64,000 nucleotides of DNA from a virus, in IMG/VR virus record IMGVR_UViG_3300042922_001182, positions 62,001 through 126,000 of that record. One strand, written 5' to 3'. The notes beneath the pieces are model-generated. The model was given only the letters and a program-made list of their open reading frames with translations, searched no databases and was not told where the DNA came from. Of this stretch, positions 1,462-62,043 are shown one piece after another (the stretch's first letter is position 1; each line of letters begins with the position of its first letter). Made by a program: the position numbers and the translations under genes.

Positions 1462-1471
1462 TACATATTAT
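1462..1471 (+). promoter_or_regulatory. Candidate phage promoter, TACATATTAT
   Basis: One of seven copies of an AT-rich element found in intergenic gaps of this GC-rich window. It lies 72 bases before the ATG at 1543. No -35 box is visible at the usual distance. Confidence 0.5.
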
Positions 1472-1480
1472 TCACTTGTC

Positions 1481-4900: not shown

Positions 4901-4930
4901 CTGACAGCCTGGCAAACAATCCGATATATT
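4901..4930 (+). promoter_or_regulatory. Candidate sigma70-type promoter
   Basis: CTGACA (4901-4906) and TATATT (4925-4930) are separated by 18 bases, close to the bacterial -35/-10 consensus (TTGACA/TATAAT). It lies just after a terminator and 27 bases before the ATG at 4957, so it would start a new unit read by host RNA polymerase. Confidence 0.5.
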
Positions 4931-7820: not shown

Positions 7821-8084
7821 GTGAACAGCAAGAGATTCCTCGAACTGGCCGAGGCCGTCGCGCCCGAGAGGGACCGGCAGGTCCTCCTCGAAAGCCGCAC
7901 CCCCTTCGGCACCGGGAGCAAGAGGGAGCTGATGTCCGCCATCGCGACGTTCTCCTCGCTCCCCCTGGAGCACCGGTCCTCCCGCCTCCGGGAGATCGAG
8001 GAGTCCGCCTCGGCCCTCGGCGTGGACCTGGAGAGGTACCACAGCCACCTGTCCATGGAGGTGAACATTGAACGCCAAGCGTAA
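7821..8084 (+). CDS. Hypothetical small protein
   Basis: An 87-residue helical protein starting at GTG 7821 with GGGAGG upstream. Its 3' end overlaps the next gene by 17 bases, so the two are translationally coupled. No family recognised. Confidence 0.7.
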   Translation: MNSKRFLELAEAVAPERDRQVLLESRTPFGTGSKRELMSAIATFSSLPLEHRSSRLREIEESASALGVDLERYHSHLSMEVNIERQA

Positions 8085-8799
8085 GAAGTACCAGGACCTC
8101 GTCGTCGAGACGATGAAGAGGCTGGACAAGAGCGGCGCCAACGCCAAGAAGTACGCGGAGATGTTCGCCAAGATGGACGACAAGCAGTTCGACTCCTACG
8201 TCAAGGCGTTCGCCAGGGACGAGGACGCGAACTTCTTCATCGAGGTCATCCCGTTCGAGACGGAGCCGACCCTGAAGATGATCGCGGCGACCGCCGAGTG
8301 GCTGGGCGTGCCCCTTGAGGAGTACGTCTTCTTCCGCCACGAGGACCCGGACGGCGACCCCGTGCGGACCTCCGTGAGGGTGCCCGTGGGCTACCTCAAC
8401 CTCAAGCGCCTCCAGCAGATCCTCAGCAAGAAGAACACCATGTCGCTCGACATCGACAAGCGCGACATGCTCGTCAACCAGGTGACCGGCGACGACAAGA
8501 TCGCCCGCATCTCTAACGTCGAGAACTACGCGCTGAGCGTCATGGGGGCCGACGAGGGCCTCAAGGAATTCCTCGGGCCCAGGTCGGACGACGGCCAGAT
8601 GAAGAGGCAGATGTACAGCGACATCTCCACCAAGGGGTACTCGCAGCTCCAGAACCTCTCCAGCAACCCGGAGGACTCGCAGGCCCTCTCCACCGTGGAC
8701 GTCTTCTTCGCGGGAGCGGGGCTCAAGACGGACCTCATCACCAAGGGCATGGCCTTCCCCAGGACCATGCGCAACATGAGCAAGAGAAAGGACGTGTAA
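8068..8799 (+). CDS. RNA polymerase beta subunit C-terminal module (stand-alone)
   Basis: A 243-residue protein from TTG 8068, overlapping the gene before it. The stretch VPVGYLNLKRLQQIL ... GDDKIARISNVENYALSVMG ... EFLGPRSDD ... MYSDI follows the last conserved block of bacterial RNAP beta (VGYMYMLKL ... RFGEMEVWALEAYGA ... KSDD ... MYKNIV). It also aligns along its length with the last ~190 residues of the 11653-13590 product, including the ends VDVFFAGAGLKTDL and MDVLLTSAGLRLTD. It is therefore a second copy of the beta C-terminal region, perhaps a subunit of a second phage RNA polymerase, which some jumbo phages have. The remaining beta blocks are absent from this gene. Confidence 0.6.
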   Translation: MNAKRKKYQDLVVETMKRLDKSGANAKKYAEMFAKMDDKQFDSYVKAFARDEDANFFIEVIPFETEPTLKMIAATAEWLGVPLEEYVFFRHEDPDGDPVRTSVRVPVGYLNLKRLQQILSKKNTMSLDIDKRDMLVNQVTGDDKIARISNVENYALSVMGADEGLKEFLGPRSDDGQMKRQMYSDISTKGYSQLQNLSSNPEDSQALSTVDVFFAGAGLKTDLITKGMAFPRTMRNMSKRKDV

Positions 8800-9054: not shown

Positions 9055-9240
9055 ATACCATTGTAGTGTTCCTTGACAATTCTCCAGGAAACGTAGAGAA
9101 TGAATCAGATAAGGTCTTGAATGTTGATTGAGATATTCAGCTAAATGTCAAGGAAAATCTTAAAGATTTAGCCATAAAACTGAAAGTAACATTGGATTGA
9201 ACTTCGTTGAGAAACCTAGAGAGAATGTAATAAGAACCTA
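9055..9240 (+). other. AT-rich, structured, gene-free island (candidate non-coding RNA or origin)
   Basis: The 371 bases from 8936 to 9306 hold no plausible gene. From about 9055 the composition switches to strongly AT-rich. TTCCTTGACA (9069-9078) is a perfect inverted repeat of TGTCAAGGAA (9146-9155). Inside are two smaller stems: ATTCTC/GAGAAT (9079-9084 with 9096-9101) and TTGAAT/ATTCAG around 9117-9140. Directly after comes AAATCT-TAA-AGATTT (9155-9169). Together they can draw a three-way junction followed by a hairpin. A TTGACA box (9073-9078) sits inside the closing stem. Whether this is an RNA, an origin or a regulatory region is unknown. Confidence 0.45.
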
Positions 9241-11563: not shown

Positions 11564-11573
11564 CACATATTAT
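11564..11573 (+). promoter_or_regulatory. Candidate phage promoter, CACATATTAT
   Basis: AT-rich element in the 168-base gap before the RNAP beta gene, 80 bases before its TTG start. The ATG at 11572 that it contains lacks a ribosome binding site and is not the start of the downstream gene. Confidence 0.55.
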
Positions 11574-11652
11574 GAATCGGGACTACAACCGCCGGGAAAC
11601 CCTGGCAAGACCCGGCAGACAGCTAAACGTTTACAGAAAGGAAGGCTTAGCC

Positions 11653-13590
11653 TTGCACGACAGGATCGACATCGAGGCCTACCGCAACACCGACCGCTTC
11701 CTTGGGGAGGAGGTCCTCTTCCCCTTCGTGAGGAGCACCGACGGCTCGCGAGAGCTGATGGCCTCGTCCCAGGTCCACCAGGCGCTCGTCCTGACCAACG
11801 GTGAGTTCCCCCGCGTCTTCACCGGGTACGAGAACCAGGTGGGGAAGTACAGCTCCGCCTACCTCCGCGCCGAGCAGGAGCTCAAGATTCTCGAAGTCAT
11901 CGGGAAGAACCCGTACAACGCGCTCATCGTCTACGAGGACGAGGAGGGGACCATCGGCGTCATCTGGCGGAAGGAGTGCGAGAGCCTCTCCGAGCACTTC
12001 GGCTACCAGTACGACAACACCTACTTGGACGGGAAGTGGGAGGGCGACACGATCGCCAAGGGGGACGTCATCCGGCGGGGGACCGCCTACGACGAGGAGA
12101 TGAACTTCTCCTTCGGAACCAACCTCAGGGCGGTCTACATCCCCTGGGACGGAATGACCTTCGAGGACGCTATCGTCATCAGCGAGAGCACGTCCAAGAA
12201 GCTTGAGACCTCCTTGGTGGAGGTCGTCACGATCAACATGAACACCAACGACCTGGCCCTCAACCTCTACGGGGACGAGGATCCCAGCGGCTACAAGTCG
12301 TTCCCCGACATCGGCGAGGAGGTCAAGAACGGCATCCTCATGGCCCGTCGCCGCATCAACTACGAGTCCGCCCTTGTGGACCTGAGCACCAACCTCCTGA
12401 CCCAGGTCAACCCCAGTCGGGACACGGTGTTCTACTGCAACGGCACCGTGGTGGACATCGAGATCTTCAACAACGACGACGTCAACCGCCTGGAGAAGTA
12501 CGACTACAACGCCCAGATGCTCAAGTACCTGGCCGTGAACATGGAGTTCTACCGCGACGTGGACAGGGTCCTCGGCGCGTACATCAACGGCGGTCGCTCC
12601 TACACGGAGGACGCCGCCGCCGCCTACCGCCGCGCCCGGGACATCTGCAAGGATGGCGAGGAGCGCATCCGCTGGCGGCAGAACAAGAACGACTTCGAGT
12701 CCTACGTCATCCGGTTCACCCTGCTGCACAAGACCACGGCCAAGCCCGGGTCGAAGCTGGCGAACCGCTACGGCGGCAAGGGCGTCATCTCGCTCATCCT
12801 CCCCGACGACCAGATGCCGGTCAACGAGCACGGCGAGCGGGCCGAGATCATCCTCAGCCCTCTTGGCGTCACCAACCGCCTCAACCCGTCCCAGCTGATC
12901 GAGCAGGAGCTCAACTTCGTGGCGGACCACATCATGCGGGAGGCCAGGAAGGCGCCCGACACCATGACGGCGTGGGGTCTAATCCAGGACCTGCTCATCC
13001 AGGTCAGCCCCACCCAGGCGTCGGCCATGGCCAGCCACCTGTACAAGGAGGACATGGAGAGCTTCGTCAAGTCCATCCTGGACGACAAGCTCTACATCCA
13101 CCAGGCGCCGTTCTGGGGGAACCTGGACCTCGGCGGCCTGATCGAGCTGTACACCAAATACCCGTGGATCAAGCCCTACAAGATGAGCTGCTCCGAGAAG
13201 CCGCTGATCATGGGCGACATCTACTTCATGCTCCTGAAGCACGAGCCGATGACGAAGTTCTCGGTTCGCTCCACCAGCACCGTGAGCAACCGTGGCACCC
13301 CCTCCAAGAGCAGCCGCTACAAGGAGCACCAGCAGCCGTTCAGCCACACGCCGATCAAGATCGGCGAGATGGAGACCTTCAACATGTTCGCCACCGGCAA
13401 CTTCGAGGAGGTCCTCCGCATGCTCAACCTCTACTCCTCCAACCCGGGGGACAGAGAGCACCTCGCAAATGTTCTCCTCAAGACGAACATCTTCGACAGC
13501 AAGCAGGTAGATTCGCTCGGCGGCGAATCCAGCGTCAAGTCTATCATGGACGTACTGCTCACCAGCGCCGGTCTCCGGCTTACCGATTAG
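11653..13590 (+). CDS. RNA polymerase beta subunit, C-terminal half (phage type)
   Basis: A 645-residue homologue of the catalytic half of bacterial RpoB. GDVIRRGTAYDEEMNFSFGT followed by WDGMTFEDAIVISE (about residue 165) matches the RpoB block GxNMRVAFMPWNGYNFEDSI. GSKLANRYGGKGVIS (about 366) and ILSPLGVTNRLNPSQ match GDKxAGRHGNKGVIS and LNPLGVPSRMNxGQ, which hold lysines near the active centre. The C-terminus carries the GDIYFMLLKH ... IGEMETFNMFATG block. The N-terminal half is encoded separately at 21807-23225. Start TTG 11653 is chosen because AAAGGAAGG lies 7-15 bases upstream; the in-frame ATG at 11572 has none. Confidence 0.9.
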   Translation: MHDRIDIEAYRNTDRFLGEEVLFPFVRSTDGSRELMASSQVHQALVLTNGEFPRVFTGYENQVGKYSSAYLRAEQELKILEVIGKNPYNALIVYEDEEGTIGVIWRKECESLSEHFGYQYDNTYLDGKWEGDTIAKGDVIRRGTAYDEEMNFSFGTNLRAVYIPWDGMTFEDAIVISESTSKKLETSLVEVVTINMNTNDLALNLYGDEDPSGYKSFPDIGEEVKNGILMARRRINYESALVDLSTNLLTQVNPSRDTVFYCNGTVVDIEIFNNDDVNRLEKYDYNAQMLKYLAVNMEFYRDVDRVLGAYINGGRSYTEDAAAAYRRARDICKDGEERIRWRQNKNDFESYVIRFTLLHKTTAKPGSKLANRYGGKGVISLILPDDQMPVNEHGERAEIILSPLGVTNRLNPSQLIEQELNFVADHIMREARKAPDTMTAWGLIQDLLIQVSPTQASAMASHLYKEDMESFVKSILDDKLYIHQAPFWGNLDLGGLIELYTKYPWIKPYKMSCSEKPLIMGDIYFMLLKHEPMTKFSVRSTSTVSNRGTPSKSSRYKEHQQPFSHTPIKIGEMETFNMFATGNFEEVLRMLNLYSSNPGDREHLANVLLKTNIFDSKQVDSLGGESSVKSIMDVLLTSAGLRLTD

Positions 13591-16792: not shown

Positions 16793-16802
16793 CACATATT
16801 AT
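16793..16802 (+). promoter_or_regulatory. Candidate phage promoter, CACATATTAT
   Basis: Lies seven bases after the ligase stop codon and 63 bases before the ATG at 16865. Its last two bases overlap the start of a perfect hairpin. Confidence 0.5.
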
Positions 16803-16830
16803 CCGAAAGACGCGTGTGCGTCTTTCGGAT
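16801..16830 (+). terminator. Perfect hairpin between ligase and next gene
   Basis: ATCCGAAAGACGC-GTGT-GCGTCTTTCGGAT, 13 pairs, followed by AACTAACTTTTC. It may end the ligase transcript, or form the 5' end of the transcript begun by the overlapping promoter-like element. Confidence 0.5.
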
Positions 16831-19961: not shown

Positions 19962-20651
19962 GTGGGCAGGGCCTTCTTCGCCTCCGAGGAGGACTGGGAC
20001 AGGATCCGCATAGCCCTCAAGGTGAAGAAGGTCGCCCACGGCATCCTGGCATGGCACCGGGAGCAAGGCAGGCATCACCTGCCTTGGCGGACGGAGAGGA
20101 CCCCCTACAGGGTCCTCACCTCCGAGTTCTTCCTGGGGAGGACGAGGGCCGAGCAGGTGGCCCCCGTCTTCCTCGCCATCCAGGAGAGATGGGCGGACCT
20201 TTCTTCTTTGGCCGCAGCCGACGCGGACGAGCTGAGGGAGGTGATACGACCGCTGGGGCTCATCGGAAGGGCCGACAGGCTGATCGCCACCGCCAACATG
20301 CTCCTGGAGCACCACGGCGGGATACCCGAGACCTGGCAGGAGCTCATCCAGTTCCCGGGTATGGGGCCCTACATCTCGGCGGCCACGGCCTGCTTCGCCT
20401 TCGGGCAGGAGGTCACCATCATCGACGCCAACGTCCTCAGGGTGTACCAGAGGATCTACGCGTCGGACCTGGAGGACGGGACGGTCACCCTGGGCTACCT
20501 GATCGAGGCCCACCCCCTCTACGCCCCGAGCTACGACGAGTGGAACTACGCCATCATCGACTTCGGCGGCCTGGTGTGCAAGGCCCGGGGTGCCAAGCAC
20601 GACCTGTGCCCCCTCACCGATGTCTGCGACCACTTCCAGATTAACCAGTGA
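19962..20651 (+). CDS. MutY/Nth-type DNA glycosylase with altered iron-sulfur ligand
   Basis: A 229-residue HhH-GPD protein. LPWRTERTPYRVLTSEFFL (about residues 40-58) matches the MutY N-terminus, with Glu55 at the place of the MutY general acid. FPGMGPYISAATACFAFG is the helix-hairpin-helix, and IIDANVLRV supplies the catalytic Asp155. The C-terminal iron-sulfur loop has exact family spacing C-x6-C-x2-C-x5-C, but the second ligand is His213 (C206, H213, C216, C222). It lacks the NUDIX-like domain of full MutY. It probably removes a mispaired or damaged base. Start GTG 19962, four bases after the preceding stop. Confidence 0.85.
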   Translation: MGRAFFASEEDWDRIRIALKVKKVAHGILAWHREQGRHHLPWRTERTPYRVLTSEFFLGRTRAEQVAPVFLAIQERWADLSSLAAADADELREVIRPLGLIGRADRLIATANMLLEHHGGIPETWQELIQFPGMGPYISAATACFAFGQEVTIIDANVLRVYQRIYASDLEDGTVTLGYLIEAHPLYAPSYDEWNYAIIDFGGLVCKARGAKHDLCPLTDVCDHFQINQ

Positions 20652-20705
20652 GGGGGCCTGCGAACAAACCCCTAAGCAACGCAACTCGAACACAAGGAGA
20701 CCCGT

Positions 20706-21556: not shown

Positions 21557-21572
21557 CAACATCGAATTGTTG
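21557..21572. promoter_or_regulatory. Palindromic site upstream of HU gene
   Basis: CAACA-TCGAAT-TGTTG is a perfect five-base inverted repeat around a near-palindromic centre, 40 bases before the HU start. It could be an operator for autoregulation; no protein can be assigned. Confidence 0.3.
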
Positions 21573-21806: not shown

Positions 21807-23225
21807 ATGAAGAAATTCCTGAGCGAATTCTCTCCCGGTGAGCCCTTCAACGAGGAGTTCATCTTCGCCAAGGACAACGACGACGTGCTTGCCTACGTGG
21901 ACGACGTGGCGGCCACCCTCAACGTGATCGAGGGCGTCGAATACCTGGGGAGCGAGCTGATCGCCGACGAGACGGAGCTACGGCCCCGTCAGGAGGACGG
22001 CAAGCAGTGGATGAGCCTCGACGAGAGCCGCCTCGACATCATTAGGATGCAGTGGCGTATCACGAAGGGGGAGGAAACCGAGGTGATCACCCAGGAGGTG
22101 CTCTACCCCAAGCTCATCGACCACCACTACTACCTGATCAACGGGGTGAAGTGCTACCCCATCTACCAGATCGTGGACTCGGAGTGCTTCAAGACCTCCA
22201 GGTCGGTGACGCTCAAGACGATGGTCATGCCCATCATCCTGCGCCACGAGCCGGAGGAGTTCGAGGACATGGAGGGGAACGTCTACAACGCCCACTCCTA
22301 CAAGCTCCACCTGTTCCACTACAAGATCAACTACCTGCTCTACTACCTCTCCAAGAAGGGGTTCGAGCAGACCATCGAGTACATGGGCTGGGACGCCTAC
22401 CACCTGGGGCTGCTGGACGCCGAAGAGGCGAGCGGCATCGACCAGGAGGTCTACCGCCTGTTCAAGGTCTCCGGGACCAGCGTGCTGTACGCCTCCAAGG
22501 AGATGCTGCAGGACCGCAACGGGCTCGACATGGTGGCGTCGCTGCTGGACGTGCTGGAGGGCAAGACCCGCCCCGAGAAGGCGGCGGAGATCGAGTACTG
22601 GAAGCGCAAGCTCGGCTCGGTGTTCACCAAGAACACCGTCAACTACGTCGAGAAGGCCGAGAGCATCAGCATCTCCTTCGAGCGCATCATCGGAAGCCGC
22701 GAGCACAAGGTGCTCCGGATCGACGACGAGGACAAGAAGGACACCTACAGCGTCGTGCGCTGGATGGTGAGGAACTACGAGGAGCTGCACCGCCAGGACA
22801 ACATGGACCTGCGCCACAAGCGCATCCGCCTGCACGAGTACCAGCTCTACCCGCTCCTGACTAAGCTGTCGACCGGCCTGTACCGGGCCCTCAACACCAA
22901 GGACCCCAAGTTCAACGACCTGAAGCAGATCCTGCGCGTCGGCCCCGGCCACGTCATCAAGCGCCTGCTCAACAACGACCTGCTGCGGTACAGCAGCGCC
23001 GTCAACGGCATGGACCTCTTCAACAGCGCGTTGAAGTTCTCCTTCCGTGGCCCGCAATCGCTGGCCGACGGCGGTAAGACGATCTCGACCAAGTACCGGG
23101 GCATCCACCCCAGCTACATCGGTCGGATCGCGCTCAACACCAGCTCGAACGGCGACCCCGGCATGGGTGGCACGTTCTGCCCGTTCATCCAGCCCCACGG
23201 CCAGTACTTCACCAAGGAGAGATAA
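21807..23225 (+). CDS. RNA polymerase beta subunit, N-terminal half (phage type)
   Basis: A 472-residue protein matching the N-terminal half of bacterial RpoB. LIDHHYYLINGVKCYPIYQI corresponds to the 'GxFxINGxERV' strand region. DLRHKRIRLHEYQLYPLL corresponds to DDIDHLGNRRVRxxGELL. FSFRGPQSLADGG ... YRGIHPSYIGRIALNTSSNG corresponds to KRRLSALGPGG ... [20 protein letters not shown]. The catalytic second half is encoded at 11653-13590, in reversed genomic order. ATG at 21807 follows AAGAGG. The rifampicin-pocket region appears diverged (RGPQSLADGG instead of RRLSALGPGG); resistance is inference. Confidence 0.85.
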   Translation: MKKFLSEFSPGEPFNEEFIFAKDNDDVLAYVDDVAATLNVIEGVEYLGSELIADETELRPRQEDGKQWMSLDESRLDIIRMQWRITKGEETEVITQEVLYPKLIDHHYYLINGVKCYPIYQIVDSECFKTSRSVTLKTMVMPIILRHEPEEFEDMEGNVYNAHSYKLHLFHYKINYLLYYLSKKGFEQTIEYMGWDAYHLGLLDAEEASGIDQEVYRLFKVSGTSVLYASKEMLQDRNGLDMVASLLDVLEGKTRPEKAAEIEYWKRKLGSVFTKNTVNYVEKAESISISFERIIGSREHKVLRIDDEDKKDTYSVVRWMVRNYEELHRQDNMDLRHKRIRLHEYQLYPLLTKLSTGLYRALNTKDPKFNDLKQILRVGPGHVIKRLLNNDLLRYSSAVNGMDLFNSALKFSFRGPQSLADGGKTISTKYRGIHPSYIGRIALNTSSNGDPGMGGTFCPFIQPHGQYFTKER

Positions 23226-24997: not shown

Positions 24998-25819
24998 CTA
25001 CCTCCCACCGAGCAAGAAGCCGCGCAGCTCCTTCTGGATGTGCTCCTCGACGCGCACGTTGGCCGTGACGTTCTGGCCGTCCGTGATGGTGACGAAGCGG
25101 CAGTCCTCCGACAGCTTCGCGCCGAAGGTGGGGATCTCGAACTGGTCCGAGATGTCCCGGAGGTTCTGGCTGCTGCTCTTGATGAAGTCCATGACGGCGC
25201 TCTCCATCACGGGGATGATGAGGCCCTCGGTCATGATCTTCTTGTCGAAGGCGTCGTACAGGCTGGAGCCCTCGTTGAGGGTCTTCTGCATGTAGGCGTT
25301 GTCGTGCGAGGGGTGGATCACCCAGTCGTACGCCAGGATGTTCAAGGGGGACTTGATCTCCAGGTAGTCCTTCTTCTGCTCGGTGATGGGGCCGATGCCG
25401 CGCATCGAGAACGCCACCTTGGAGCCCTGGCGGATCAGGCCGCCGAAGTCCTTGCCGACGGCGGTCATGGCGGACTCCACGATGCCCTTGATGACGGTGC
25501 CCTCCATCCAGGCCCTCGTCACGATGTGCGAGATCCTGGTGTGGTCGATGGAGAGCTGGCGCTGCATGTCGGAGCTGATCGGGTGACCGGCCTCGCCGTA
25601 CCAGGTCTTCGTCTTGACGCGCTCGATGACGTAGGGGGCCTTCAGCGCCTCGTTCAGGGTCTTCGAACCGTACAAGCGCTTGTTGCGATTGGCACGGTCG
25701 GCGTCCTGGAGGAACGTCTCGATGGCGACGAACTCCTTCTGCTCGCTGATGATGGTGGGCTTGTACTCCTGCTCCGCCGCCTCGGAGATGATCAGGTAGC
25801 CCTTGTTGCTGGTATCCAT
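24998..25819 (-). CDS. Prohead core protease (T4 gp21-like serine protease)
   Basis: A 273-residue protein. LQDADRANRNKRLYG, then WYGEAGHP (His79), then RISHIVTRAWMEGTVIKG, and finally LIRQGSKVAFSMRGIG (Ser138 in SMRG) follow the order of the U9/S80 prohead proteases: a catalytic His in a G-x-x-x-HP context, then a Ser in S-x-RG. These enzymes sit inside the procapsid and cleave scaffold and capsid N-termini during maturation. The GSKV-x-FSxRGxG block is especially typical. ATG at 25819 has GGGAGAGG upstream on the minus strand and an AACA-N6-TAAG element 34-47 bases upstream. Confidence 0.85.
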   Translation of the reverse strand: MDTSNKGYLIISEAAEQEYKPTIISEQKEFVAIETFLQDADRANRNKRLYGSKTLNEALKAPYVIERVKTKTWYGEAGHPISSDMQRQLSIDHTRISHIVTRAWMEGTVIKGIVESAMTAVGKDFGGLIRQGSKVAFSMRGIGPITEQKKDYLEIKSPLNILAYDWVIHPSHDNAYMQKTLNEGSSLYDAFDKKIMTEGLIIPVMESAVMDFIKSSSQNLRDISDQFEIPTFGAKLSEDCRFVTITDGQNVTANVRVEEHIQKELRGFLLGGR

Positions 25820-25852: not shown

Positions 25853-25866
25853 CTTATACTATTGTT
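25853..25866 (-). promoter_or_regulatory. Candidate late promoter, AACA-N6-TAAG (minus strand)
   Basis: Read on the minus strand: AACA-ATAGTA-TAAG, 34 bases before the prohead protease start. The same pattern is found before the minus-strand genes at 31733 and 60483. Confidence 0.5.
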
Positions 25867-25899
25867 GGAGGATGAAAGCGAATCTACCGTAAACCCGTA

Positions 25900-25909
25900 C
25901 ACACATTAT
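25900..25909 (+). promoter_or_regulatory. Candidate phage promoter, CACACATTAT
   Basis: Variant of the CACATATTAT element in the divergent gap, about 34 bases from the oppositely directed minus-strand element and 44 bases before TTG 25953. Confidence 0.45.
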
Positions 25910-25952
25910 CTTCATGACCAAACCACTTGTTAGCAAGGAAGGAAGGAACCTT

Positions 25953-26381: not shown

Positions 26382-26442
26382 ATTAGGGGGACGCGGGCCC
26401 TCAACACCCACTTGTACGACACCCACACGCTAGGAGAGGACA

Positions 26443-30321: not shown

Positions 30322-30395
30322 GCCTTCGTAGCTCAGCTGGACAGAGCGGGTCCGTCCTAAGGACAAGGTCGGGGGTTCGAATCCCTCCGGGGGCG
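30322..30395 (+). tRNA. tRNA-Arg (anticodon CCU)
   Basis: A 74-base cloverleaf. Acceptor GCCTTCG pairs with CGGGGGC (two G-T pairs). The D stem is GCTC/GAGC around AGCTGGACA. The anticodon loop is GTCCTAA, with U33 followed by CCU. The T arm is GGGGG-TTCGAAT-CCCTC, with a five-base variable loop. The outermost anticodon-stem pair is a G-A mismatch. CCA is not encoded. It reads AGG, a codon used heavily in this window's genes, so it likely supplements the host pool. Confidence 0.85.
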
Positions 30396-30438
30396 CTCGC
30401 CGAAAGGCGCTAACGGCAAAGAGAAGGAGAGAAGCAAC

Positions 30439-31007: not shown

Positions 31008-31733
31008 TTAGTCCCGAACGGGGAGGACGTCGCCGTCCTGGTCGACCCAGCCGACCGCCGTCCTGGTCACGACCACCCCACCCAGGTCGTAGCCAGCCAG
31101 CGTCTCGCCGGTCAGAGAGTCGACGACCCTCGGGACCCCTGTGCTGCTGCACACGAGCAACGGTTCGCCAGGAGCCTCCGGGGCCCGGTCGTCGCCGGTG
31201 CCACTCTCGCTGGTACTTCCGCTGCTCTTTCCTACCTCGCCCTCTTCCGGCTCCTCCTCCGTGGGGATCTCCGAGAAGCGCGCCAACAGGGCGTCCTCCG
31301 GGTCCACGTCGGCGGAGACGGTCGCAGCCCTGGACGTCGGGGCGGCGATGGACGTGTTGCTCGTCTTCGCCGCCTCCATGATCTTGTCGAAGAGCTGGAG
31401 GGCCGTTGCGCCCGCGTCCTCGCTCTCCTTGACCTTGAGGTCCTTGATCTTCATGTCCTGCTGGGTCTTCTTTAGGGCCACCAGCTCCTTGACCATGGAC
31501 AGCTTGGCGTTCTTGGTGGAGGTCATGACCTCCAGCATCCTGGCGATGCTGCCGGGCGTCGCGCCACGGCGATCCGCGAGGAGGCGGTCCAGGACCGTCT
31601 TTCCACTGTCGAACATACCGTCCAGGTCGTCGAGCTCTTTGATGAGCAGGTCCCGCTCGTAGCGGAACGGATCCGCCTCATCGTACGGGTAGCCGTTGTC
31701 GGGCGGGGAGCCCGCGTTCGCGTCCTGCGTCAT
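31008..31733 (-). CDS. Hypothetical acidic coiled-coil protein (possible virion or packaging protein)
   Basis: A 241-residue minus-strand protein. ATG at 31733 has AAGGGAGGGAG upstream. Residues ~20-110 form charged helices (LLIKELDDLDGMFDSGKTVL ... ATPGSIARMLEVMTSTKNA ... TQQDMKIKDLKVKE), loosely like small terminase or other helical packaging proteins. A low-complexity Ser/Glu region follows, then a beta-like C-terminus. It is preceded by an AACA-N6-TAAG element like the prohead protease and sheath genes, suggesting late, virion-related expression. Function not established. Confidence 0.6.
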   Translation of the reverse strand: MTQDANAGSPPDNGYPYDEADPFRYERDLLIKELDDLDGMFDSGKTVLDRLLADRRGATPGSIARMLEVMTSTKNAKLSMVKELVALKKTQQDMKIKDLKVKESEDAGATALQLFDKIMEAAKTSNTSIAAPTSRAATVSADVDPEDALLARFSEIPTEEEPEEGEVGKSSGSTSESGTGDDRAPEAPGEPLLVCSSTGVPRVVDSLTGETLAGYDLGGVVVTRTAVGWVDQDGDVLPVRD

Positions 31734-31771: not shown

Positions 31772-31785
31772 CTTATGATAGTGTT
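31772..31785 (-). promoter_or_regulatory. Candidate late promoter, AACA-N6-TAAG (minus strand)
   Basis: Read on the minus strand: AACA-CTATCA-TAAG, 39 bases before ATG 31733. Confidence 0.5.
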
Positions 31786-31797
31786 AACGGTTTTGTC

Positions 31798-31807
31798 CAC
31801 ATATCAT
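31798..31807 (+). promoter_or_regulatory. Candidate phage promoter, CACATATCAT
   Basis: AT-rich element 40 bases before GTG 31847 and only 12 bases from the opposite-strand AACA-N6-TAAG element. Confidence 0.5.
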
Positions 31808-31846
31808 CCTATCGCACCAGGAAAAGGTCGCGTAAAGGAGAAAGAC

Positions 31847-35904: not shown

Positions 35905-35914
35905 CACATATTAT
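35905..35914 (+). promoter_or_regulatory. Candidate phage promoter, CACATATTAT
   Basis: Immediately follows a terminator and precedes ATG 35960 by 45 bases, exactly the layout expected of the start of a new transcription unit. Confidence 0.6.
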
Positions 35915-35959
35915 GCCCTTGACAACGGTTTGCTGACTACGGAAAGAGGTATTTCCAAC

Positions 35960-42255: not shown

Positions 42256-42296
42256 GGGGTGGGGGGAACACGACCGTATGTGAGCCCCCCTACCCC
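42256..42296 (+). other. Leader hairpin
   Basis: GGGGTGGGGGG pairs with CCCCCCTACCCC (one mismatch) around an 18-base loop, just after a weak promoter-like GCATATCC at 42243. The next gene starts 26 bases further on. Confidence 0.4.
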
Positions 42297-51070: not shown

Positions 51071-51128
51071 CTCCCTAACCCCCCAAACCCCCCGGCAACA
51101 CCCCGCTAGGCACGAGGAGGGCCACGAG

Positions 51129-54440: not shown

Positions 54441-54467
54441 GCCTCCCTCTTACCACGGTAGAACAAC

Positions 54468-54477
54468 CACATATCCT
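54468..54477 (+). promoter_or_regulatory. Candidate phage promoter, CACATATCCT
   Basis: Variant of the shared AT-rich element, 41 bases before the portal ATG and directly after a hairpin terminator. Confidence 0.5.
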
Positions 54478-57771: not shown

Positions 57772-60483
57772 TTACTTGACGATGATGTCGTTGACGACAC
57801 GCTCGATCACGTTGTTGAAGACCAGCTCGGTCTTAACACGCGTCACCTTGCGCTTCTTCTCGTAGTCGGAAGCGTACACCGTGCCATTGGCAACCTTGCA
57901 GGCGCGGTTGTCGACCCACTGGGAGAGCTCGCCGTTCACATCCGCCTGGAAGGCGTTGTAGGTCGAGGCGTCGCTGAACTCGAACTGGTAGTTCTCGCCC
58001 ATGCGCTCGATACGGCGGAGGATCCTCAGGAGGACGCGGACGTTGTTCTGGTCCGACAGGGCGGAGACCACCTTCTGCATGGTCAGCTGGGAGCCGATCT
58101 TGGTGGTGGTGTTGTCCTGCTCGGCGTAGTTGATCTGGAGCTTGTACAGCTCCTCCTTCCACGTCTCGGTCGGGTTGAACGACATGCGCTTGAAGCCGTC
58201 GAGGACGCCGCGACGCAGGCCAGCCAGCGGGAACTGGATGCCGTTGGCGGTGTCGTTGGCGGGGATCATGCGCGACAGGAAGTAGGTCATGGTGACCTTG
58301 ATGTCGCCGCCGGTGAACTCCGCGTCCTCGACCACGAAGTCCTGGGTGTAGAGCGAGCCGAAGAAGCTCGACGCCTGCGCCTGGTTCTTGCGGAAGTCGA
58401 CGGCCTTCGCCGCGTTGGGCGTAAAGCCGGTGTCCAGGATCGCCATGTGGTCGCCACGGATGTTCCGGGCCAGCTCCAGCATGGCGGTCTTGACGGGCGT
58501 GGGGTAGTTGGCGTCGATCGTCAGGTCGATCGGGACCAGCTTCTTGTTGGTGACGTTCTGGTCGAGCGTGCCGCTGTACGCGGACACCAGCAGCGAGGTC
58601 GCCGTGGTGGTGCGCAGAGTGGGGTTCGACTCGTCCAGGTCGCCGTCGGTACCGCTACCGAGAGGCGCGAGGTTGTCGATGTTGTAGATGTCGACGCCGT
58701 AGGTGTTGCCGAGCTTGACCGTGGCCTCCGAGCGCGCCTCGGTGAGGACGCCAGCGGCGGCGGTCAGGACGGCGACCTTGTCGGCATCGGACGCCTTCGC
58801 GACGCCGACGGCGGCGGTCAGGACGGTGTCCAGGTGACCGTAGGCCGTCTCCATCGAGGTGATGACGTCGTTGGCAGCATCGACCTTGGCCTCGGTGAGG
58901 TTGGTGTTGATGGCGGCCTGGGCGGCGGTCAGGGCAGCAGCGGCGGCGGAGGTCGCCGTGTTGAGCTTGTTCGCAGCGGACGAGGTCGTCGCGATGGCGT
59001 ACGCAGCCAGGGCCGCATCGGCCGCCGTGATGGCGGTGTCCAGGGTGGTCTCGGTCGCGTCCGCCTCGGTCGAGATAGCCAGCACGGTGGTGCGGACTTC
59101 CTTGGCCAGGGCGACCGCGTCCTTGGCGGCCTGGTGACGGGTCACCGGGTCGGCGCCGACGTTGGCGGCGGTGATGGCAGCCTGGGACGCGGTGACCCGC
59201 GAGGTCAGGCCCAGGGTGGCCATCTCCACGACGTTGGCGGTGCGCGAGGCGGTGGTGTAGCCCTCGATCGCCACCAGAGCCGCGAGGACGGCGACGGTGG
59301 CACCCTGGACGGCGCGGCCCAGGTTGTAGGCCTGAAGCTGCTCGGTGCGCTTGGCGCCCGAAGCGTAGGCCAGGAGGGCCTCGGCAGCGAGCTTCTCGGC
59401 AGCTTCGCCGACGGCGGCGACCATGTCGGCCTTCAGCTTGAGGAAGGTGCCAGCGGTGGTGGGATCGCCCTTCGACGTGGTCAGGGCGGTCTTCAGCGCG
59501 GTGGCCTCGGTGTTGTAGGTACCGGCCTCGACCTTGTCCATCGCGTCTTCGATCGTCGCGATGGCGGTCAGGGCAGCGGCGTGGTCGGACACGCGCACGG
59601 CCTCGTCGGCGTTCACGATCGCGGCGACGGTGGAGCTGGAGACGTCGGCGAGCTTGGTGCCAGCGTGGATGGGATCCTCGCCGTCGACGTCGCGCTCGGT
59701 GACGGTCAGCAGGTCCAGCAGGGCCGGGTCGACGTCCGGGTTGATCGCAGCGCCGAGAGCGTTGTAGGCGTCCTCGTTGTAGAGGAACTCCATCTGCTCG
59801 GAGAAGTTCTCGAACACGTAGTCGATCGTCATCTTCTCGTTCGACTTCGACTTGGCGTCGGGCGAGAACGAGACGAGGAAGGGGCCCTCGACCGGGGTGA
59901 CGGTGCCGGTCTTGGAGACGCGGACAACGCTGGCCTCGTAGACGCGGAAGTCGTTGGTGTTGTCCAGGTCCGTGGTCAGACGGAGCTGCACACCCAGGTC
60001 GTTGTAGCCCTTGCCGCGACCCTTCGGGCGGAACGCGCCCAGCAGGTGGTGCTTGTAGCCGTCCACGGTGTCCGAGTGGACGCGCTTCAGCTCGGCTTCG
60101 AGCGCCTCGTGCGAGGTGTGGTTCACCGGGCTGTACATCAGCACCGGGCGGACCTGCAGCTTGCCGCTCTCCATCTTCGTCTGGACGTCCAGGATGACGT
60201 GAGCGAAACCGGCGTTCTCGGGCATGACGCGGAGGCCGAAGACCTCGCCGCCGGACTGCAGGAAGTTGCGAATGTTGTACATGGCCTGTCCGTGGCGGCG
60301 CATGTTGGGCTTGCCGTAGTGAAACTCGGCCTCGCTGGGGGTGGTAAGCCTGACCAGCGTGTTGTCGGGACCGATGTCCGACGTGAACGCGGTAAGCATC
60401 ACGGTCGACCCCGCCGCAGTCACGAAGATCACCGAGTCGTCGATGATCCGCGAGCTGATACTCGGGTGAAGATACTCTTCCAT
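57772..60483 (-). CDS. Tail sheath protein with large Ala/Thr-rich insertion
   Basis: A 903-residue minus-strand protein. The N-terminus (EEYLHPSISSRIIDDSVIFV ... STVMLTAFTSDIGPDN) and C-terminus (GGDIKVTMTYFLSRMIPAND ... VLDGFKRMSFN ... FNNVIERVVNDIIVK) follow contractile-sheath design. Between about residues 255 and 590 lies a low-complexity, strongly helical Ala/Thr/Asp-rich region without Cys or Trp, likely an extra domain exposed on the tail surface. T4 sheath is about 660 residues, so the insertion explains the extra length. ATG at 60483 (GGAGG upstream) is preferred to the GTG at 60498. Confidence 0.8.
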   Translation of the reverse strand: MEEYLHPSISSRIIDDSVIFVTAAGSTVMLTAFTSDIGPDNTLVRLTTPSEAEFHYGKPNMRRHGQAMYNIRNFLQSGGEVFGLRVMPENAGFAHVILDVQTKMESGKLQVRPVLMYSPVNHTSHEALEAELKRVHSDTVDGYKHHLLGAFRPKGRGKGYNDLGVQLRLTTDLDNTNDFRVYEASVVRVSKTGTVTPVEGPFLVSFSPDAKSKSNEKMTIDYVFENFSEQMEFLYNEDAYNALGAAINPDVDPALLDLLTVTERDVDGEDPIHAGTKLADVSSSTVAAIVNADEAVRVSDHAAALTAIATIEDAMDKVEAGTYNTEATALKTALTTSKGDPTTAGTFLKLKADMVAAVGEAAEKLAAEALLAYASGAKRTEQLQAYNLGRAVQGATVAVLAALVAIEGYTTASRTANVVEMATLGLTSRVTASQAAITAANVGADPVTRHQAAKDAVALAKEVRTTVLAISTEADATETTLDTAITAADAALAAYAIATTSSAANKLNTATSAAAAALTAAQAAINTNLTEAKVDAANDVITSMETAYGHLDTVLTAAVGVAKASDADKVAVLTAAAGVLTEARSEATVKLGNTYGVDIYNIDNLAPLGSGTDGDLDESNPTLRTTTATSLLVSAYSGTLDQNVTNKKLVPIDLTIDANYPTPVKTAMLELARNIRGDHMAILDTGFTPNAAKAVDFRKNQAQASSFFGSLYTQDFVVEDAEFTGGDIKVTMTYFLSRMIPANDTANGIQFPLAGLRRGVLDGFKRMSFNPTETWKEELYKLQINYAEQDNTTTKIGSQLTMQKVVSALSDQNNVRVLLRILRRIERMGENYQFEFSDASTYNAFQADVNGELSQWVDNRACKVANGTVYASDYEKKRKVTRVKTELVFNNVIERVVNDIIVK

Positions 60484-60563: not shown

Positions 60564-60578
60564 CTTTAATTGAATGTT
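60564..60578 (-). promoter_or_regulatory. Candidate late promoter, AACA-N6-TAAA (minus strand)
   Basis: Read on the minus strand: AACATTCAATTAAAG, 81 bases before the sheath ATG, in a 123-base gap that otherwise holds no gene. Confidence 0.5.
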
Positions 60579-61368: not shown

Positions 61369-62043
61369 CTAGAACTTCTTCTCCTCCAGGTAGCCGACCA
61401 GCCCCCGGATGCCCGCCGCCAGCGGCTCGTCCTGCTTGCCCTCGGCGGCCCGGTAGATCCGCTCGATCAGCTCGGAGACGAACAGGGCGTGGTCCTTGAG
61501 CGACTTCGCAACGACGAAGCTGTAGAGGTGCAGGCAGAAGACCGTGGCCTCCACCTGGGCTCTGGCGTGGTCGGCGCCGGGTTGGCTGGAGAGGATCTTC
61601 CTGACCATACCGGCGACCGGACGGAGGTTGCGGAACTGGAACTTGCTACCCCGCATCTTCTCGTACGCCTCGCTGTACATCTTGTTGTTGTGCGCCTTGT
61701 CCTTGTACTTGGCGGTGGAGGCCAGCTGCCCGCCGATCCTGGTGCGCAGGCGCTCCAGCTTGTAGGCGTCCTGGATCTGGGTGAAGACGGCGTTGGTGAC
61801 CTTGCCCTCGGGGGTGGCGACCTCGGCGTTCTCGGCGAGGGACTCGGTCATCATGTCGTAGTTCGCGGAGCCAGGAGCCAGGCTCATGTGCTCCACGTTC
61901 TCTCCGACGATGTCCTCCTTGAACTCCTTGTTGGCCTTCTGGAGGATCTCCTCGAAATCGGCGTTGAAGTTGTCGATCTCCTTGATGAGCTTGGCGTCCT
62001 CCTCATCAGCGGTGAGGAACGCCATCGACGTGTTGTCTTGCAT
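61369..62043 (-). CDS. Probable virion protein, helical
   Basis: A 224-residue minus-strand protein; ATG at 62043 has AGGAAAGAGAG upstream. Helical throughout (DNFNADFEEILQKANKEFKE, NKMYSEAYEKMRGSKFQF). No family recognised; inferred virion role from position. Confidence 0.6.
   Translation of the reverse strand: MQDNTSMAFLTADEEDAKLIKEIDNFNADFEEILQKANKEFKEDIVGENVEHMSLAPGSANYDMMTESLAENAEVATPEGKVTNAVFTQIQDAYKLERLRTRIGGQLASTAKYKDKAHNNKMYSEAYEKMRGSKFQFRNLRPVAGMVRKILSSQPGADHARAQVEATVFCLHLYSFVVAKSLKDHALFVSELIERIYRAAEGKQDEPLAAGIRGLVGYLEEKKF

Follow-up and report, generated by a model that had tools for sequence, protein, structure and literature searches.

The late promoters of Bacillus phage AR9 (Takahashivirus PBS1) have the consensus AACA-(6N)-TA/G with transcription starting at the last base, and its early promoters follow AAATATATATTAT-(6N)-G (PMC5312081). 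The AR9 nvRNAP reads the template strand of the late promoter and requires uracil at positions -11 and -10 (PMC7598289; PMC9209446). Structurally, U(-10) is held between I207 of gp226 and R363 of the beta N-terminal (beta N) subunit, Y210 of gp226 stacks on G(-9), and V206 of gp226 blocks the methyl group of thymine, which is accepted once V206 is changed to glycine (PMC9209446). In the Yersinia phage phiR1-37, RNA-seq reported no conserved sequence besides an AT-rich promoter (PMC4848604), and the missing late consensus has been remarked on (PMC5312081).

The DNA described here, referred to as the window, is a stretch of 64,000 nucleotides (positions 62,001 to 126,000) of the IMG/VR virus record IMGVR_UViG_3300042922_001182, which is 238,984 bp long with 63.5% GC and a noncoding share of 6.6%. 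A codon-usage script called 284 genes across the record, and as these calls are home-made the start positions are approximate. The phage is related to AR9 but has diverged from it; tblastn matched 71 of its proteins to AR9 (E up to 1e-3), and its gene order shows long blocks conserved with AR9 along with rearrangements. No relative came up when phage records were searched at the nucleotide level or viral contigs were scanned with a single protein, while a two-protein alignment recovered relatives from viral contigs. Bacterial and archaeal genomes yielded nothing related to the nvRNAP beta subunit.

A spaced motif upstream of virion genes

An earlier note on this DNA had described three minus-strand units starting behind AACA-N6-TAAR, and these strings were confirmed letter for letter at 31785-31772, 25866-25853 and 60578-60565 on the minus strand. 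The downstream genes were also as claimed, being g100 encoding an acidic protein of unassigned family (31008..31733, minus strand), the prohead protease g93 (24998..25819, minus strand, 41% identity to AR9 g114) and the tail sheath g144 (57772..60483, minus strand, 46% identity to AR9 g126). A fourth match was located at 20663-20676 on the plus strand, and the four matches in 64 kb compare with a mean of 0.33 and a maximum of 2 in 100 dinucleotide shuffles. Eight matches occurred in the whole record, seven of which were intergenic and 28-92 nt upstream of a co-oriented gene. Neither TAAR nor the T-rich start that had been proposed described the sites well, as only T(A/G) was constrained; TAAR is over-specified because the base after A/G is free. 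The consensus in this phage is AACA-N6-T(A/G), the last base being the likely transcription start.

Within the 13,121 nt of intergenic DNA preceding genes, 40 sense sites matched AACA-N6-T(A/G) as against a mean of 3.6 and a maximum of 9 in 500 dinucleotide shuffles, none of which attained 40, and about a tenth of the sites (approximately 4 of 40) are expected by chance. Only the six-base spacer was raised, with 2-9 sites at spacers of 0-5 and 7-15. Among the 256 tetramers AACA ranked first before N6-T(A/G) (p = 1e-21). A pattern-free expectation-maximisation search returned the ribosome-binding site, then (CAC)ATATTAT and then AACA-N6-T. Most of the information in the late motif was carried by AACA, and no further conserved element was present upstream (mean information 0.09 bit). 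The median distance from motif to start codon was 38.5 nt, which is compatible with a start at the A/G. Many parallel comparisons were run and the central tests lie far beyond what these could explain.

Enrichment before late genes, which the earlier note had named as the check on its proposal, was found across the genome: among genes preceded by a gap, the motif stood before 12 of the 19 that encode virion or vRNAP proteins and 28 of 143 others (p = 1.6e-4). An exact match was missing at the remaining 7 of the 19, and some virion genes without the motif may be read from a promoter further upstream. The class had been described as one of the minus strand. A bias was upheld, with the motif at 20 of 49 minus-strand genes and 20 of 113 plus-strand genes (p = 0.003), but restriction to that strand was not, the 40 sites being split evenly (20 plus and 20 minus).

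In the window, the focal predicted late promoter AACA-CTATCA-TA (31774..31785, minus strand) has its predicted start at the A at 31774, and the g100 start codon lies 40 nt on. The predicted promoter before g93, AACA-ATAGTA-TA (25855..25866, minus strand), has a counterpart at about equal distance from AR9 g114, and the motif is also found at the AR9 equivalents for AACA-TTCAAT-TA (60567..60578, minus strand) before g144 (AR9 g126), AACA-ACCACA-TA (54462..54473, plus strand) before the portal gene g142 (AR9 g128) and AACA-ATCCGA-TA (4915..4926, plus strand) before g68 (orthologue AR9 g052). Late promoters were further predicted at AACA-AACCCC-TA before g86 (20663..20674, plus strand) and AACA-ATTCGA-TG before g87 (21560..21571, minus strand). 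Probable late promoters on the plus strand were AACA-CCCACT-TG before g95 (26403..26414), AACA-CGACCG-TA before g118 (42267..42278) and AACA-CCCCGC-TA before g134 (51097..51108). A weak candidate, AACA-TTGGAT-TG (9188..9199, plus strand), lies 107 nt before g75.

A host promoter of the sigma-70 type, or chance matches in the AT-rich spacers of a GC-rich genome, could be considered as the source of the motif since the intergenic DNA is richer in AT than the genes. Shuffles of the same spacers retained that composition and gave 3.6 sites against 40, with only the six-base spacing raised in the real DNA. The upstream information test showed no -35 element in the late promoters, and sites of the TTGACA-N17-TATAAT type were at shuffle level (one site in the 10 kb from 24 to 34 kb). 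The spacing peak was also repeated in relatives of 25% to 55% GC, as described below, and this explanation is regarded as very improbable.

Polymerases and early promoters

Each of the five nvRNAP subunits of AR9 has a homologue encoded in the record (g4, g77, g88, g167 and g200; tblastn), and the set comprises the split beta and beta' core and a gp226-like sigma subunit. The beta C-terminal subunit g77 (11653..13590, plus strand) is 42% identical to AR9 gp089 (PF00562, 7.6e-22) and the beta N subunit g88 (21807..23225, plus strand) is 40% identical to AR9 gp105 (PDB 7s00 chain c, 2.5e-108), while the sigma-like subunit g200 (genome 189471-190922) has 28% identity to gp226 (PDB 7s01, gp226 chain, 5.8e-46). 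Four vRNAP subunit homologues were also found by tblastn against AR9, with g73 (8068..8799, plus strand) corresponding to AR9 gp078. The promoter-pocket residues were retained, these being V206 and Y210 of gp226 (in g200) and R363 of beta N (in g88). In AR9 a contact to U(-10) is also made by K375 of beta N, a position occupied by D in this phage, by R in phiR1-37 and by N in the Staphylococcus phage S6. K375 is not a defining residue because confirmed dU phages are also without it.

Among genes with an AR9 orthologue, the orthologue also carried the motif for 22 of 26 genes that have it here and for 17 of 40 that do not (p = 6e-4); the comparison group matters because AR9 is AT-rich and some of its matches will have arisen by chance. 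The earlier note had drawn a parallel with AR9, whose late promoters are read by a multisubunit polymerase of the phage, and the exactly spaced consensus, the five nvRNAP homologues and the use of the same orthologous genes support it. The shared orthologue sites together with polymerases homologous to those of AR9 indicate that the parallel is one of homology rather than analogy. Both phages have AACA-N6-T(A/G) with exact spacing, without a -35 element and before virion genes, and both have a five-subunit nvRNAP with V206, Y210 and R363 and an early motif ending in ATTAT-N6-G. AR9 differs in having 28% GC against 63.5%, and the nvRNAP subunits are 28-42% identical.

We are confident that AACA-N6-T(A/G) is the late promoter of this phage and that its own AR9-type nvRNAP is the reader. 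From homology we infer which polymerase reads the motif, that the template strand is read and at which base transcription starts. The nvRNAP would be produced after infection and would recognise the motif in the AR9 manner. Some ten bases ahead of the start, g200 and g88 are predicted to bind the complement of AACA on the template strand (3'-TTGT or UUGU), and the first base transcribed would be the A or G of T(A/G).

Early genes would start from (CAC)ATATTAT-N6-G and be read by the virion polymerase. The early, or class I, element terminates in ATTAT-N6-G as it does in AR9 and therefore both promoter classes have AR9 counterparts. The 19 virion and vRNAP genes scored above for the late motif all lacked the early one. 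Early-class promoters on the plus strand of the window include ATATTAT-N6-G before the nvRNAP gene g77 (11567..11580) and further sites at 1465..1478, 16796..16809 and 35908..35921. ATATCAT-N6-G (31801..31814, plus strand) before g101 is divergent from the focal late site within one 113-bp gap, and ACATTAT-N6-G (25903..25916, plus strand) before g94 is divergent from the late site of the protease, so that late (minus) and early (plus) promoters stand back to back in single short gaps at 31774-31814 and 25855-25916. An ACA core common to both classes had also been suggested. This was ruled out as a link between them by the differing distance from the start, the early ACA lying at about -15 to -13 and the late AACA at -11 to -8, and the resemblance is coincidental. 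Outside the window, before the endonuclease gene g192, an early motif overlaps a late one on the same strand, AACACCATATTATAG (genome 183399-183418), an arrangement that may allow continuous expression.

The late motif in related genomes

Gene calling and the spacing test were repeated in the same way on nine other genomes, namely AR9, phiR1-37, S6, the Listeria phage LPJP1, four genomes labelled G001-G004, and the Pseudomonas phage phiKZ. The number of sites with the six-base spacer, set against the mean for all other spacers, was 78 against 22 in AR9, 62 against about 17 (16.6) in phiR1-37, 33 against 15 in S6, 46 against 17 in LPJP1, 46 against 12 in the metagenomic relative G002 (55% GC), 18 against 5 in the likewise metagenomic G001 (50% GC) and 81 against 24 in G004, with a weaker peak in G003 (20 against 7). 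A virion-gene bias of the motif was present in AR9, phiR1-37, S6, LPJP1, G002 and G004, and G001 and G003 have too few virion genes to be judged by this test. The AR9 late promoter, defined in one low-GC phage with uracil DNA, is thus common to a clade ranging from 25% to 63.5% GC. The GC-rich member is useful in that the signal stands clear of background and the polymerase residues can be compared directly.

Looser and stricter patterns had given null results. Whole-genome counts of AACA-N6-TA against a reversed control showed no signal in the AT-rich relatives because this pattern was drowned by background, and AACA-N6-TAAR showed none in G001 and G002 because it is over-specified. Counting only intergenic DNA before genes with the other spacers as control resolved this. 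In LPJP1 and phiR1-37 the spacing test detected the late motif but the three best motifs of a de novo search did not include it, since so short a motif is readily outscored there.

S6 and LPJP1 share the motif, the spacing, the virion-gene bias and V206 with the phage described here, and differ in having 25-26% GC and Gram-positive hosts. phiR1-37, a confirmed dU-DNA phage, shares the gp226 and beta N homologues and the AACA-N6-T(A/G) peak, and differs in having 33% GC. The 62 sites before phiR1-37 genes represent a candidate late promoter for that phage. No paper giving a late motif for phiR1-37 was found in the literature searched, which excludes most subscription journals.

A late promoter of the phiKZ type, with TATG at the start and AACA incidental, was also considered since the nvRNAPs of phiKZ and AR9 are distant homologues (PMC9209446) and that of phiKZ reads late genes. 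In phiKZ the six-base spacer gave 29 sites against a mean of 18 (p = 0.003 without correction, among 256), an excess too weak to count as a real late motif, and there was no virion-gene bias. phiKZ further differs from the phage described here in its TATG consensus, thymine DNA and nuclear shell, and homologues of the phiKZ nuclear shell and PhuZ were not found in the GC-rich phage at E 0.1. With AACA being the most informative part here and the base after T(A/G) free, a phiKZ-type promoter is regarded as extremely improbable.

Probable uracil recognition and the composition of the DNA

Since V206 is kept and excludes thymine in AR9, this phage of 63.5% GC may carry deoxyuridine DNA. Deoxyuridine at -11 and -10 is probably required for recognition, in which case the genome probably contains dU. 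On the evidence given below we consider dU the better supported of the two states, with moderate confidence. V206 could also have been retained by descent rather than for uracil specificity.

Ordinary thymine DNA with the same promoter and polymerase, the pocket tolerating thymine and the motif being recognised without uracil, is a distinctly less probable alternative with several points in its favour. No dCTP deaminase was found in the record by PF00383, DCD-family or AR9 Dcd searches and no Ugi homologue was found, in both of which the record differs from AR9. K375 of beta N is D, and the dU phages so far described have been noted to be of low GC (PMC8460666). Set against thymine DNA are V206, whose change to glycine admits thymine in AR9 (PMC9209446), and the retention of Y210 and R363. 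Genes related to dTMP removal are also present, including g158, which is homologous to Dtm, the dTMP phosphatase of PBS1 (8.5e-29), and g164, a YfbR-like protein (PF12917, 2e-21) of the family that includes the dTMP phosphatase of the dU roseophage DSS3_VP1 (PMC12697855). No thymidylate synthase (ThyA or ThyX) turned up in family searches of the record, and the lack of phiKZ shell and PhuZ homologues noted above likewise weighs against thymine. The guanylate-kinase-like protein g211 is also found in dU phages. In phiR1-37 dTTP is removed via the pyrophosphatase Dtt (PMC12697855), and in LPJP1 the support for dU is PCR behaviour only (PMC8460666). The gene g85 (window 19962-20651) encodes a protein like HhH-GPD base-excision glycosylases, with no sequence match to the AR9 N-glycosylase.

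One relative, G004 (IMGVR_UViG_3300031994_000003; 333 kb, 26.7% GC), no longer has the pocket. Its V206 region reads KRYW and Y210 and R363 are replaced, and among the genomes compared V206, Y210 and R363 were lost together only in G004. Homologues of Dtm and Dcd were not found in G004, and the coincidence of a dismantled pocket with their lack in this sole relative further argues against thymine DNA in the GC-rich phage. The late-type AACA motif of G004 is extended to tgAACAATttATTATA and precedes sheath, terminase, protease and vRNAP genes. In the beta-subunit tree G004 groups with phiR1-37, G001 and G002 with modest support (80/86). That pocket loss is tied to a longer promoter is an idea drawn from one case. 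We tentatively suggest, at slightly short of an even chance, that the GC-rich phage is a dU phage that tells its own promoters from those of the host by template-strand uracil and that promoter length trades against this uracil check across the clade, the pocket-less G004 having the extended form. Whether conserved V206 predicts deoxyuridine DNA can now be tested, as can whether loss of the uracil pocket accompanies a longer promoter as in G004.

Other genes of interest included g163, which has a metallo-beta-lactamase fold, matches Anti-Pycsar Apyc1 (PF23023, 6.7e-21) and has a weak AR9 homologue in g022. A single tRNA-Arg with a CCT anticodon was located at window positions 30322-30396. Two genes, g221 (genome 202525-204315) and g233 (genome 212488-214452), encode long proteins with the similar N-termini VVAELLQNAQRAGA and VVAELLQNSQRAGA that look like GHKL-type ATPases.
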